Below are positions 58,983 through 64,000 of a stretch of 64,000 nt of DNA, piece after piece. The notes beneath the pieces were generated by a model. The model was not told the DNA's origin. It was given only the letters and a program-made list of their open reading frames with translations, and searched no databases. The position numbers and the translations under genes were made by a program. The DNA comes from Nitratireductor sp. GISD-1A_MAKvit (GTDB taxonomy: Bacteria; Pseudomonadota; Alphaproteobacteria; Rhizobiales; Rhizobiaceae): positions 1,549,001 through 1,613,000 of the forward strand of contig NZ_CP161920.1 of the NCBI RefSeq assembly GCF_040819555.1, written 5' to 3'. Every line of letters starts with the position of its first letter. The stretch's first letter is position 1.

Positions 58983-59444
58983 GACGAGGCCCTCATCCTT
59001 GACCTGCCGTATGGTCAAAGCCGTGCGGACCGTATCCACACCGCGCGCTGACGTGAGTTCCTCGATCACAAATGTCTGGAAGGTGGTAAGGTCGCTCGCC
59101 ACGCAATGCAGCATGAAATCAGAATCACCCGACACCATCCAAGCGCGGCGCACGATGGGCCAGTGCTGTGTCTGCTCTGCGAAAGCTTTCAGTTCTGCCT
59201 CGGACTGATGGTGAAGTCCGACAAGGCAGAACGCCACGACGTCGAGGCCGAGAGCGGGTGAGTTGAGAAGGGCGCGATAGCCTTTGATGATGCCGGCCTC
59301 TTCAAGACGCTTGACGCGCCGCAGGCAGGGCGGGGCAGAAATACCCACGCGCCGCGATAACTCCACATTGGTCATTTTGCCGTCAGCCTGAAGCTCGCGC
59401 AGAATTTTCCAGTCGATTGCATCAAGATCAGCCTGTAGCGGCAT
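58968..59444 (-). CDS. Lrp/AsnC-family transcriptional regulator
   Basis: A 158-aa regulator: N-terminal helix-turn-helix ([40 protein letters not shown]) and a C-terminal RAM ligand domain ([40 protein letters not shown]). ATG 59444 ([12 protein letters not shown]) has GGGAAG upstream; ATG 59456 is possible. The order lrp-trxB-lysR is conserved in rhizobia, where the relative lrp3 is itself a target of LsrB. Confidence 0.93.
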
Positions 59445-59800
59445 GTTGCTTCCCATATCTGTTGAACTGCGCGAGAATCCCTTGCGCATGCGCGCTGAAA
59501 TTTAGGGCAAGCTTCATTCCAAGCCAAGCGGCCTTCAAATGCACGGTTCACTATCCACCGTGTATGGTGTTTTCTGGTGGCGCGACATTCGGTAACTGTT
59601 GGAAACCCATTCCTCGTCTTGCACAACGGGGTGGTCAATACTTAGATCGTATTACCGAGTTTAGCGGCTGGTCGCCTGGCAGGCACCATCCGGAATGCGT
59701 GTCGCGGCCTCTAGGTTGGGAACGACGCGTTTTGAGCCAGAATGCCCGTAGTTCACGCCTATCGTGCCATCGGGATCACGAGCGAAAGGATTCAAGTCCA
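59445..59800. other. 356-bp divergent region between lrp and trxB
   Basis: No gene is seen. It should contain both promoters; TTCGGTAACTG (about 59590) and CAATACTTAGATCG (about 59637) are locally AT-rich. No operator was identified confidently. Confidence 0.35.
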
Positions 59801-60775
59801 ATGTCACGTCGTCACGCGCCCGTCCTCATCATCGGCTCGGGCCCAGCCGGGTACACGGCAGCGATCTATGCAGCCCGGGCAATGCTCAAGCCTCTTCTGG
59901 TTGCTGGCCTCGAACAGGGCGGACAGCTGATGATCACGACCGAGGTCGAGAACTATCCGGGTTTTGCCGATCCGGTCCAGGGCCCCTGGCTGATGGAGCA
60001 GATGCGCGGACAGGCGGAAAATGTTGGCGCAGAAATCGCCAATGACCTGATCGTGGATGTCGATCTGTCGTCGCGCCCCTTTGTTTTGAAGGGCGATTCC
60101 GGCACGGAATACACCTGTGATGCGCTGATCATTGCCACTGGCGCCAAGGCGAAGTGGCTCGGCCTGCCTTCCGAGCAGACCTTTATGGGGTTTGGCGTAT
60201 CGGCCTGTGCTACCTGTGACGGGTTTTTCTACCGTGGCAAGGATGTTGCGGTTGTGGGCGGCGGCAACACGGCCGTCGAGGAGGCGCTTTACCTGTCCAA
60301 TCTCGCCAAGTCGGTGACGCTGATCCATCGCCGCGACGAACTGCGGTCGGAGCGCATTTTGCAGGAGCGCCTGATGGCGAAGGAGAATGTGACCATCATG
60401 TGGGACACGGTGGTGGAAGAGATTACCGGTATGCCGGCCAAACCGCCCATGCCGGCGTCGGCTTCGGGCGTGCGTGTCAAGAACGTTCACTCAGGTGCAG
60501 TTTCTGAGCTGGCAGTCGATGGCGTTTTCGTGGCGATCGGTCATGCACCTGCCGTTGAGCTGTTTGAAGGCAAACTGAAACAGAAGCCCAATGGGTACCT
60601 GTGGACGCAGCCTGGCACAACGCAAACGGACGTTCCCGGCGTGTTTGCGGCCGGTGATGTGGCCGACGACATCTATCGTCAGGCTGTCACAGCAGCCGGC
60701 CTTGGCTGCATGGCCGCGCTTGAGGCGGAGAAATATCTGGCGGCGATGGAAACAAAACAGGAAGCTGCCGAATAA
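59801..60775 (+). CDS. trxB: Thioredoxin reductase
   Basis: A 324-aa flavoprotein that reduces thioredoxin with NADPH. The FAD site is [17 protein letters not shown], the redox disulfide is CATCDG (~138-143), the NADPH site is [20 protein letters not shown] with [11 protein letters not shown], and [20 protein letters not shown] is the C-terminal FAD block. ATG 59801 with AAAGGA upstream is the family start. A LysR regulator of the LsrB/VtlR type lies 76 bp downstream on the same strand. Confidence 0.97.
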
Positions 60776-60851: not shown

Positions 60852-61742
60852 TTGGACTGGGACAAACTCAGGGTTTTTCATGCCGCCGCAGAGGCAGGCT
60901 CATTTACGCACGCCGCTGAAACGCTGCACCTCTCGCAGTCGGCAATTTCACGTCAGGTGAGCGCACTCGAGCTGGAAGTCGGTGTGCCGCTCTTCCACCG
61001 CCATGCGCGCGGCCTGGTGCTGACCGAACAGGGCGAGATGCTCTACCGCACGGCACACGACGTGTTGATGCAGCTCGAAAGCGTGCGTGTGCGCCTGACC
61101 GAGGCCAAGGACCGCCCCTCGGGTCTCCTCAAGGTTTCGACTACGGTGGGTCTCGGCACGGGTTGGCTCACCGAAAGGCTGCCGGAGTTCATCGAGCTCT
61201 ATCCCGATATCGAATTGCAGCTCATTCTCGACAACGAGGAACTGGACCTGACAATGCGGCAGGCAGACTGCGCGATCCGCATGCGCCAGCCGCAGCAGCC
61301 GGACCTCATCCAGCGCAAGCTGTTTACGGTGCATTTCCATCTGTTTGCGTCGCCTTCCTATGTCAACAAACACGGGAAGCCTTCATCGATTGCGGATCTG
61401 GACAATCATCGCATCGTGACCTTCGGCGAGGCGGTGCCACCACATCTGAGTGATATGAACTGGCTGGAGACGGCGGGGCGGCCCGAGGGGCAGAAGCGCC
61501 AGACTGCGCTGCAGATCAACAACATCCTGTCGATCAAGCTTGCCGTTCAGCGCGGTGCCGGCATAGCCATGCTGCCCGATTATGTGGTGGGCAAGAGCAA
61601 CGACCTGGTGCAATTGTTGCCGGAAACCGCTGTCCCTTCATTCGACACGTATTTTTGCTATCCGAACGTGATGAAAAACCAGGCAAAGCTCCACGCTTTT
61701 CGGGATTTCCTTATTTCCAAATCACGACATTGGGCATTTTGA
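60852..61742 (+). CDS. lsrB: LysR-family regulator, LsrB/VtlR type
   Basis: A 296-aa LysR regulator. MDWDKLRVFHAAAEAGSFTH (TTG start) and TLHLSQSAISRQVSALELEV form the winged helix; the remainder is the two-lobed effector domain. Position after trxB and the sequence closely match Sinorhizobium LsrB, Agrobacterium LsrB and Brucella VtlR, which regulate LPS genes, redox genes and, in Brucella, the AbcR2 small RNA. A candidate AbcR-type RNA follows immediately, with TTTGCA/TGCAAA half-sites upstream. Confidence 0.87.
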   Translation: MDWDKLRVFHAAAEAGSFTHAAETLHLSQSAISRQVSALELEVGVPLFHRHARGLVLTEQGEMLYRTAHDVLMQLESVRVRLTEAKDRPSGLLKVSTTVGLGTGWLTERLPEFIELYPDIELQLILDNEELDLTMRQADCAIRMRQPQQPDLIQRKLFTVHFHLFASPSYVNKHGKPSSIADLDNHRIVTFGEAVPPHLSDMNWLETAGRPEGQKRQTALQINNILSIKLAVQRGAGIAMLPDYVVGKSNDLVQLLPETAVPSFDTYFCYPNVMKNQAKLHAFRDFLISKSRHWAF

Positions 61743-61772
61743 CGCAGTATTTCCCAAGAAAAACGGGTCGTT

Positions 61773-61800
61773 ATGCAAATTTGCATGGGTGAATTGCAAA
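61773..61800. promoter_or_regulatory. Candidate LsrB/VtlR binding region
   Basis: ATGCAAATTTGCAT (61773-61786) is a perfect 14-bp palindrome, and TTTGCA-N9-TGCAAA (80-85 and 95-100 of the 61.7 kb block) forms a second overlapping dyad of LysR-like geometry. The second is centred about 55 bp upstream of the predicted start of the small RNA. Confidence 0.5.
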
Positions 61801-61844
61801 AACACGTGGTTGTTATTTAGGCGCTTATTGCCCATATGAGAAGC

Positions 61845-61958
61845 ACTCCCGGGGGCGTTCTCCTCCCATTTGCCCCCGCGAGTGTTCCCCTCTGGAGGTT
61901 TCGCCTATATGGCACTTCCAATGACTAAGCCGGATCTACGTGATCCGGCTCTTTTTTT
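61845..61958 (+). ncRNA. Candidate AbcR/alpha-r15-type small RNA
   Basis: Promoter TTGTTA (61810-61815), 17 bp, CATATG (61833-61838). The predicted ~114-nt RNA has a first hairpin CACTC-C-CGGGGGC with GCCCCCG-C-GAGTG (one mismatch) whose 15-nt loop presents CTCCTCCC, then an unpaired GTTCCCCTCT, and a perfect 9-bp terminator AGCCGGATC-TACGT-GATCCGGCT followed by CTTTTTTT. Two exposed C/U-rich anti-Shine-Dalgarno tracts and a Rho-independent end are the hallmarks of AbcR RNAs, which silence ABC-transporter mRNAs with Hfq. The identity is inferred from memory and architecture. Confidence 0.65.
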
Positions 61959-61970
61959 GTCTTCAGTTTA

Positions 61971-64000
61971 TCAGGCTGCCTTTCCGCGTCCGTTCATGGC
62001 AGCGTCTGCCAGACGCCCCGTGAGTTCCGCCATACGGTCAAAACCCGCGCGATAGCTGGACACGCCGGCTGTTGCCGACCGCAGTTCGATGATGAGGTCG
62101 CCAGTCTCGGACGCTGGTATTGTCGCTTCCACCACATCCCAGCCACGCCAGCCCTCTCGCGCATCGAAACCGAGGATCTGCCCGCGTCGCTGGGAAAGTA
62201 TGGCCGTGACGCGAGCGGTCGCATCGGAGGGCGTGAAGACCTCGATCCGGAGAATGGGCTCGAGGAGGACGGGGGAGCATTCTGCCAGCCCTTCCTTCAT
62301 CGCCAGGCGTCCGGCCAGCTGGAAGGCCATATCGGAGGAGTCCACGGAATGGTAGGAACCGTCGGAAAGGTTGACAGCAAGGTCGATCACGGGAAAACTG
62401 AGTGGTCCCGATCTCAGCGCATCATGCACACCGGTTTCCACGGATGGGATATACTGCTTCGGCACAACCCCGCCCGTTATCGTGTCTGTGAATTCAAAGC
62501 CCGCTCCCCTCGGCAGGGGACGGATTTCGAGAACAACGTCGCCGAATTGCCCGTGCCCGCCCGACTGTTTCTTGTGCCGACCGCGCTTGGTGGTGCTTTT
62601 GCGGATGGTTTCGCGGTAGGGGATGGCCGGTGCGTCCGTATCTATGGGAATCTGGTATTTTCCCTCCAGCCTTTCGCGCGTGACCCGCAGGTGCATTTCA
62701 CCCTGGCCGCCCAGCACCATTTCACCGGTTTCCTGTCTCTGGTCGAGGCTGAGCGACGGATCCTCTTCCAAAAGCTTTTGCAGGGCGAGAGAGAGTTTGG
62801 CTTCGTCCCTGCGTTCCTTCGGATGGACCGCGACCGAATAGACCGGTTGCGGCCTCTTGAGCGGAACCAGGGGTGTGGGGGCGCTCTTGCCGGTGGTCAG
62901 TGTGTCACCCGTTTGCACGCCTTCGAGCTTTCCCAGGGCAACCGTTTCGCCCGCCTCTGCCTTCGAGACCTTTTTCTGCTCGCGGCCGAGCAATGTGTAG
63001 AGACCGGACGCCTTGTCGATGGCATTTTCGCTGCGCAGTTCCGTTCCGTCCGTGAGAGTGCCGCAAAGAAGCCGGGAGACTGAAAGCTTGCCGCCATGGG
63101 GTGTGTGGACCGTTTTCATGACGTGGAGAACCGTCTCTCCATTGTCCTGCAGGGCAAGACGCTCGCGCGTGGCCTCGACATCCGGGGCATCATGCCGGAT
63201 TGCCTTTAGGAGCCTTAGAATGCCGTTGCCTTTTTCGGCCGATCCTATGAGGACAGGGGTGACGATACCTTCACGCAGGTCAGCCGCCAGATCGTCGAAG
63301 ATTGCATCGCGCGGTGGCTCGATCTCTTCCAGCAATTGTTCCATCAGCTGGTCGTCATGGTCGGCCAGTGTTTCCAGCATGGAAAAACGTGCTTCGATCT
63401 CTCGAGCCTTGTCGTCGCCGGAAATAGGAGCGATCTCGCTGCTGGCATGTTCACGATAGACATAGGCCCGCTCGAGCGCCAGATCGATCGAGCCGATGAC
63501 GATTCCGTCTTTGCGAAGTGGGATCTGCCGCAGCAGCAATGGCGTTTCGCTGGTGGGCTGCAGCAATTTCAGAATGTCGCGCACGCCCATCGTGGCCTGT
63601 TCGATCCTGTTGAGGAAGATCATGCGCGGGATCCCCAGCTCATCCAGTCGGTGCAATGTGAGTTGCAGCGCGGCGGTCTTTTTTTCGTCGGGCTCGGTCA
63701 CGACGATGGCCATATCGGCAGCGGCGAGAATGGCCTCGGCTTCGTGAGCGAACTCGATGGAGCCGGGACAATCGATCAGAGTGATGCTTTCACCGAGAAA
63801 GCTGGTCGTGGCGACGTTGGCTTCCACGCTCATTTGATGCGATTTGGCCTCTGGGGAGTGGTCTCCAACGGTTCCAGCGCCGGTGTCTGCCTGCTTTGGA
63901 ATGGCGTCGGTGCGCTCCAGAATGGCTTCAAGCAGGGTTGTCTTGCCACATGCAAACGGACCGACAATGGCAATGCATTTCGGTCCGCGGCTTCTCTCTC
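61971..64000 (-). CDS. Elongation factor G-like translational GTPase (partial)
   Basis: At least 676 codons of an EF-G-like protein; the start lies beyond the right edge. G1 is GPFACGKTTLLE, G3 is LIDCPGSIEFAHEA, and G4 reads FLNRIEQ where NKxD is usual. Domain IV and V blocks are present (SGGHGQFGDVVLEIRPLPRG, DATARVTAILSQRRGQILGF). This is the rhizobial second EF-G-like form (a FusA2 type with altered G1 and G4), whose role in translation is unclear; it is not the canonical FusA. Confidence 0.88.
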   Translation of the reverse strand, partial: ERSRGPKCIAIVGPFACGKTTLLEAILERTDAIPKQADTGAGTVGDHSPEAKSHQMSVEANVATTSFLGESITLIDCPGSIEFAHEAEAILAAADMAIVVTEPDEKKTAALQLTLHRLDELGIPRMIFLNRIEQATMGVRDILKLLQPTSETPLLLRQIPLRKDGIVIGSIDLALERAYVYREHASSEIAPISGDDKAREIEARFSMLETLADHDDQLMEQLLEEIEPPRDAIFDDLAADLREGIVTPVLIGSAEKGNGILRLLKAIRHDAPDVEATRERLALQDNGETVLHVMKTVHTPHGGKLSVSRLLCGTLTDGTELRSENAIDKASGLYTLLGREQKKVSKAEAGETVALGKLEGVQTGDTLTTGKSAPTPLVPLKRPQPVYSVAVHPKERRDEAKLSLALQKLLEEDPSLSLDQRQETGEMVLGGQGEMHLRVTRERLEGKYQIPIDTDAPAIPYRETIRKSTTKRGRHKKQSGGHGQFGDVVLEIRPLPRGAGFEFTDTITGGVVPKQYIPSVETGVHDALRSGPLSFPVIDLAVNLSDGSYHSVDSSDMAFQLAGRLAMKEGLAECSPVLLEPILRIEVFTPSDATARVTAILSQRRGQILGFDAREGWRGWDVVEATIPASETGDLIIELRSATAGVSSYRAGFDRMAELTGRLADAAMNGRGKAA

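Follow-up and report, generated by a model that had tools for sequence, protein, structure and literature searches.

The window analysed here, 64,000 nucleotides of Nitratireductor DNA, carries on its forward strand a thioredoxin reductase-like frame, trxB (59417–60775; Pfam Pyr_redox_2), whose true start lies inside the open frame. It stands directly 5' of lsrB/vtlR (60852–61742, forward strand), which encodes a LysR-type regulator of 296 amino acids (Pfam HTH_1 and LysR_substrate). On the other side lies a convergent elongation factor G-like gene (61971–63998, reverse strand, open at the window end; NCBIfam NF009379, 981.5 bits against a cut-off of 513), which has no part in the circuit proposed below. 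From the lsrB stop (61742) to the EF-G-like gene (61971) there are 228 nt, and they hold a complete predicted small RNA gene. The first-pass annotation had described a compact transcription unit here, directly 3' of lsrB/vtlR, with −35 and −10 elements, two C/U-rich stretches and a terminator; the gene calls agree with this placement and all of the described elements are present in the sequence. The window LsrB is 99% identical to LsrB of Nitratireductor sp. B36 and pb3 and 68–69% identical to LsrB of the Sinorhizobium loci compared. Its only cysteines, C140 and C269, both align with Sinorhizobium cysteines, and the constant offset of 4 suggests that they are the equivalents of A. tumefaciens C144 and C273. 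With its trxB neighbor and its two cysteines, the protein shows the features expected of an LsrB/VtlR regulator.

The first-pass annotation had called the small RNA AbcR-like and had named a covariance search with the Rfam alpha-r15 model as a check. That search returned a match to ar15 (RF02345, AbcR) at 61845–61955, with 43.1 bits against a curated cut-off of 40, a margin of just 3 bits (E 1.8e-5). The alignment runs end to end (model positions 1–112 of 112), and ar15 was the sole Rfam match at the gathering cut-off within the window. Our own covariance model, which has the window RNA in its training set, scored 123 bits at the same place. The predicted RNA (61844–61957, forward strand, ~114 nt, both ends predicted) folds at −53.1 kcal/mol, compared with −30.3 ± 3.1 for shuffled sequences (z −7.3; 0/200 shuffles as low). 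The predicted fold consists of three stem-loops of which the last is an intrinsic terminator, as in ar15 RNAs. Stem-loop 1 (61844–61884) presents an anti-Shine-Dalgarno motif, aSD1, in its loop and is followed by a single-stranded linker with a second motif, aSD2, by stem-loop 2 (61893–61920) and by the terminator (61928–61958), which has a 9-bp stem and 5-nt loop (61928–61950) and a T-run (61952–61958). The motif aSD1, CUCCUCCC (61860–61867), corresponds to the C/U-rich stretch CTCCTCCC of the first reading, and aSD2, UUCCCCUC (61885–61892), falls within the C/U-rich strand GTTCCCCTCT (61884–61893). Both motifs have the same letters as aSD1 and aSD2 of S. meliloti AbcR1/2, which adds to the case for the AbcR-like identity; both occupy the ar15 positions in the predicted fold and both are invariant across the 28 rows of our alignment of lsrB-linked RNAs (A1). 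In S. meliloti AbcR1/2 the two motifs have been dissected genetically, and AbcR is described as repressing ABC-transporter mRNAs through them (PMC8844928).

Of 82 distinct units, 60 close the aSD1 loop with a stem of 7 bp or more, where shuffled flanks gave 6.1, and the stem sequence varies between lineages while the loop stays closed. These observations bear on a reading in which the locus codes for a short protein and resembles an RNA gene by accident, as a 61-codon open frame starting from TTG does overlap the RNA (61870–62055). The Rfam match, stems that stay paired though they change, and indels among relatives in alignment A1 that are not multiples of three all speak against such a protein, to which we attach a negligible probability. 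On its sequence features, the segment 61844–61957 is a genuine AbcR-family regulatory RNA gene.

Upstream of the RNA, the 14-bp palindrome ATGCAAATTTGCAT and the TTTGCA-N9-TGCAAA dyad of the first reading were found at 61773–61786 and 61780–61800 of the forward strand, respectively. Both overlap the published LsrB/VtlR box, an overlap absent from that reading. From pattern and conservation we predict an LsrB recognition element of three half-sites, ATGC-N6-GCAT-N7-TTGC, at 61773–61797 (forward strand). It includes an exact match, GCATGGGTGAATT (61783–61795), to the published box GCAT-N3-TG-N3-T (PMC8844928, PMC7486931), located at −61 to −49 of the predicted start at 61844, which is the position given for the box in the S. 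meliloti abcR1 promoter (PMC8844928). By itself this 13-mer carries no significance: the window has 11 occurrences where 8.8 are expected. The longer pattern ATGC-N6-GCAT-N3-TG-N3-TGC occurs once in the 64 kb and had any occurrence in 0 of 100 shuffles. Predicted −35 (TTGTTA, 61810–61815) and −10 (CCATAT, 61832–61837) elements follow on the same strand with a 16-nt spacer. An alignment of 15 promoters, which range from Nitratireductor to Stappia, Cohaesibacter and Anderseniella, shows no variation in the GCAT, the next TGC or the −35 TTG, and 90% or more conservation in the C-A-T-A columns of the −10; these promoters were picked as element-bearing, so the alignment gives register and not frequency. 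A simple sigma-70 scan of 61500–62200 made no promoter calls, and a simple scan of the same segment for terminators alone was at chance level (1 found, 0.9 expected). Thus, the promoter and terminator calls carry weight because of position and conservation, not scan scores. The −10 region of the window, CCCATAT, is one letter from the RpoH1 −10 CCTATAT of PMC8844928, and, taken with the negative sigma-70 scan, the core promoter is compatible with more than one sigma factor.

Because it includes the third half-site (TGC after GCAT-N7), the extended element may be used to seek the circuit where the RNA scores below the ar15 cut-off. Searching the whole genome for TGC-N6-GCAT-N3-TG-N3-TGC gave two exact places, of which the window holds one, and 60 with one mismatch. 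The second exact place falls inside an ABC-transporter ATPase-like reading frame, and we do not claim a genome-wide LsrB regulon. Of eight stretches taken up from this search (L265–L272), we inspected two (L265 and L266). A three-half-site LsrB-like element with one mismatch was observed at C2:3788066–3788089 on the minus strand (L265:667–690), ~155 nt 5' of the ATG of a periplasmic-binding-protein-like frame, and could be either a further LsrB site or a chance occurrence.

Rfam and our own model each found a single ar15 match in the window genome. We considered a second AbcR copy and rejected it, as the next-best matches of our own model reached only 20.3 and 20.0 bits (E ~0.1); reading at L140 covered the first 200 flanking bases. 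A model (R1) that served for searching only, built from the 28 lsrB-linked RNAs of A1 with an RNAalifold structure of 20 pairs, found exactly one copy in each of 10 genus-group genomes, the window's included. In the nine others the RNA starts 104–106 nt past the last lsrB codon (stop included) and the box lies at −61. This single copy departs from the statement in PMC3712013, which concerns distribution and is not a defining feature, that ar15 is always multi-copy in Rhizobiaceae and Brucellaceae; the statement is not strictly applicable here because Nitratireductor belongs to the Phyllobacteriaceae by NCBI. Within the GTDB family, 65 of 114 ar15-bearing genomes had a single match under strict filters that may miss weak copies. 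A single-copy LsrB-AbcR circuit placed in Nitratireductor offers a readout that tandem paralogues do not blur.

To see how far the box follows the RNA, we compared 58 ar15 loci, these being the best-scoring matches with tandem copies counted apart, and counted boxes between −70 and −50 only. In 42 of the 58, lsrB lies within ~1.4 kb upstream; 31 of these 42 carry the strict box and 11 are without it. The strict box was also present in 7 of the 16 loci with no lsrB in the available stretch, one of which (L045) ends at a contig edge and is not judgeable for linkage. Among the 38 loci with a box, it lies at exactly −61 in 30 and at −61 or −62 in 35. Six ar15 copies with no lsrB in the available stretch (L015, L021, L031, L038, L041 and L046) have retained the LsrB box, which lies at −60 or −61. 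It seems that the circuit can persist when the RNA gene moves elsewhere.

As the RNA lies ~100 nt past the lsrB stop on the same strand, the transcript might arise from the trxB-lsrB operon, as its 3' UTR or by read-through, and not from an independent gene. We regard this as very improbable. The distance from box to RNA start is nearly fixed, and the box also accompanies ar15 copies with no lsrB nearby. In Mesorhizobium qingshengii (L085), moreover, 843 nt separate the lsrB stop from the RNA start and contain a 190-codon frame on the other strand, while the box remains at −61 of the RNA. The same displaced arrangement, with the RNA 524–795 nt after lsrB, was found in three genomes of one genus (L005, L006 and L028), whose lsrB loci (L147–L149) are 87–88% identical to L085 over lsrB and trxB. 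That the box stays with the RNA across the intervening frame in M. qingshengii indicates that the RNA has its own promoter.

An independently transcribed AbcR need not be an LsrB target, and a second alternative is that the RNA is a genuine AbcR driven by another factor, with its place beside lsrB reflecting an inherited neighborhood. The loci that lack the strict box despite linkage to lsrB, and a core promoter that is undecided between sigma factors, are compatible with this, as is the report that transcription of S. meliloti AbcR2 is RpoH1-dependent and LsrB-independent (PMC8844928). We nonetheless consider it improbable, since the window box is exact and in the published position and recurs at −61 in the nine other genus-group genomes. 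These same features favor the link to LsrB drawn in the first-pass annotation. By analogy with relatives, LsrB very probably activates the AbcR gene in this organism.

We are therefore highly confident in an overall reading of the locus as a single-copy AbcR gene with its own promoter after lsrB, activated by LsrB and acting with the assistance of Hfq to silence transporter and metabolic mRNAs. LsrB, a thiol-based redox switch elsewhere, would bind 61773–61797 and activate transcription from ~61844. The ~114-nt RNA would then act in trans with Hfq, the gene for which is present in the window genome, and aSD1 in the loop of stem-loop 1 and aSD2 in the linker would cover ribosome-binding sites. 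The transporter and metabolic mRNAs so covered would be silenced, and redox input through LsrB would feed AbcR transcription. Relatives lead us to expect that expression of the RNA, its activation by LsrB and repression of its targets hold in Nitratireductor as well. We looked for targets among substrate-binding-protein (SBP) genes (38 matches, from which five C-terminal pieces were dropped; starts were picked for Shine-Dalgarno strength, and several appear to be internal). Within the 30 nt before the start, 7-mers complementary to aSD1 or aSD2 occurred in 10 of 33 SBP genes (L276, L277, L284, L293 and L304 among them) and in 2 of the 42 window ORFs that served as controls (one-sided p 0.003, from a set of six tests without correction), a comparison that is confounded because SBP genes have stronger Shine-Dalgarno sites generally (two-sided p 0.00015). 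This weakly suggests that SBP mRNAs may be among the AbcR targets in the window genome.

We examined the wider distribution of this arrangement in 170 lsrB loci, comprising 80 named loci (the best 80 of 530) and 90 from an order-level genome sample. An LsrB match was found in 187 of 199 order genomes, and these supplied the 90 as the 30 best loci plus 60 chosen at about one to two per genus. In 168 of the 170, lsrB has a trxB relative on its own strand no more than 600 bp upstream, in line with the description of trxB as accompanying lsrB throughout Rhizobiales (PMC11975290). The same source describes A. tumefaciens LsrB as a thiol switch and C144 and C273 as common to S. meliloti and B. abortus. 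Among 81 aligned LsrB sequences, cysteines occupy the window's two positions in 51 and 47. Mesorhizobium LsrB (L085 and L147) has alanine at the equivalent of position 269, reading YLAYPD or YFAYPD where the window and A. tumefaciens proteins read YFCYPN with the redox cysteine, and the LsrB box is still kept there. Lineages may differ in how LsrB senses redox state, and this incomplete conservation of the cysteines, with alanine in Mesorhizobium, weakens a general redox reading.

Downstream of lsrB, GCAT-N7-WTGC was found in 87 of 160 distinct 600-nt stretches, compared with 7.0 in shuffles. The box followed 55–150 nt later by CTCCC or CCTCC was found in 86 of the 160, compared with 1.65 in shuffles, and the remaining 74 are without this unit of box and anti-Shine-Dalgarno motif. 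In the 90 sampled loci the strict unit was present in 33 and a relaxed unit, with one mismatch allowed, in a further 14, the shuffle control covering the strict unit alone; 43 had neither. At least one locus with the strict unit was found for 20 of the 36 families in the order sample. On a quick LsrB tree with a midpoint root, loci with a strict or relaxed unit (47/90) lie on both sides (24/41 and 23/49), and the unit label changes 21 times, below all 500 shuffles. This pattern is compatible with a unit that was present early and was then lost or relocated repeatedly, although the tree does not separate gain from loss. The suggestion of the first-pass annotation that regulator and target form an ancestral local circuit is to this extent in keeping with the wide distribution.

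Rfam ar15 reached its cut-off in 38 of 60 scanned named loci (18/20, 18/20 and, in a more distant batch, 2/20), and several distant loci below the cut-off still show the box, aSD1 and aSD2. We speculate, at about even odds, that trxB-lsrB with a downstream anti-Shine-Dalgarno small RNA driven from an LsrB box is an ancestral order-wide module, which has conserved its slot and logic (regulator, box and C/U-rich seed) rather than one RNA family. On this proposal the RNA in the slot would have drifted below the ar15 cut-off in lineages such as Stappia, Cohaesibacter, Pannonibacter and Tepidamorphaceae, ar14 (the NfeR1 family) would fill it in Ahrensia, and some relocated copies would keep the LsrB box. 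Separately, eight loci (L124–L126 and L134–L138) have C/U-rich motifs and terminator-like ends downstream of lsrB with little ar15 sequence. Rfam scans of four of them (L124, L134, L135 and L138) gave no match at the cut-off, and the RNAs are possibly an undescribed family. A search of a plasmid collection gave lsrB-like matches and nothing further.

The closest known counterpart is S. meliloti AbcR1 (ar15; SmrC16/SmelC412), which, as described in PMC8844928, is likewise intergenic and adjoins lsrB, has its LsrB box at −61 to −49, and carries aSD1 in the loop of stem-loop 1 and aSD2 in the linker. The S. meliloti RNAs are 121 nt (AbcR1) and 114 nt (AbcR2), compared with the ~114 nt predicted here. 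They differ from the window RNA in lying in tandem before an ArsR-type gene, whereas the window has one copy followed by the EF-G-like gene. Stem sequences also differ, with an Rfam score of 43 bits in the window and 104–114 for the first copy of three Sinorhizobium loci. In A. tumefaciens the order trxB-vtlR-abcR is the same as in the window, but there are two tandem small RNAs, and VtlR also activates vrsA and atu1667 (PMC7486931). In Brucella abortus the VtlR/LsrB orthologue activates an AbcR RNA through a GCAT-N3-TG-N3-T box. Which RNA this is differs between sources: abcR2, as the first-pass annotation had it, is the target according to PMC7486931, which sets B. abortus apart from species in which both small RNA genes directly follow vtlR, whereas PMC8844928 and PMC7143759 give AbcR1, encoded beside the VtlR gene.

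A sibling RNA offers a further comparison. S. meliloti NfeR1 (ar14) is an aSD-bearing small RNA that LsrB activates through TGCA-N6-GCAT at −72 to −60, as described in PMC10746234. The window palindrome at 61773–61786 is a dyad of this type whose spacer is shorter by one base, although ar14 is an Rfam family distinct from the window's ar15. The window genome has four ar14 matches, three of them in tandem (C2:1978955–1979408 and 3362985–3363095; L311–L314). We considered whether LsrB might also control ar14 here and rejected the idea, as none of the four copies has any of four LsrB-type patterns in the 110 nt upstream, unlike S. meliloti nfeR1. In Ahrensia marina, ar14 (74 bits; L119, 3986–4109) was observed after lsrB in the slot that ar15 fills elsewhere, preceded by an LsrB-like dyad, and one sibling RNA family appears to stand in the other's place. 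Among open-access titles and abstracts, the scope of our literature search, we found none on this RNA in Nitratireductor or on the lsrB slot in Stappia-like families.

Like lsrB-AbcR, OxyR-OxyS of E. coli pairs a LysR-type redox sensor with a neighboring small RNA that it switches on; it differs in its unrelated RNA, divergent gene order and other targets. An AbcR gene beside lsrB is not new in kind, because adjacency and direct activation of abcR1 by VtlR are already in print for A. tumefaciens (PMC7486931), as are lsrB-abcR1 adjacency and LsrB activation for S. meliloti (PMC8844928), the latter paper also stating high synteny across alphaproteobacteria. What is added here is the breadth of the arrangement into more distant relatives.
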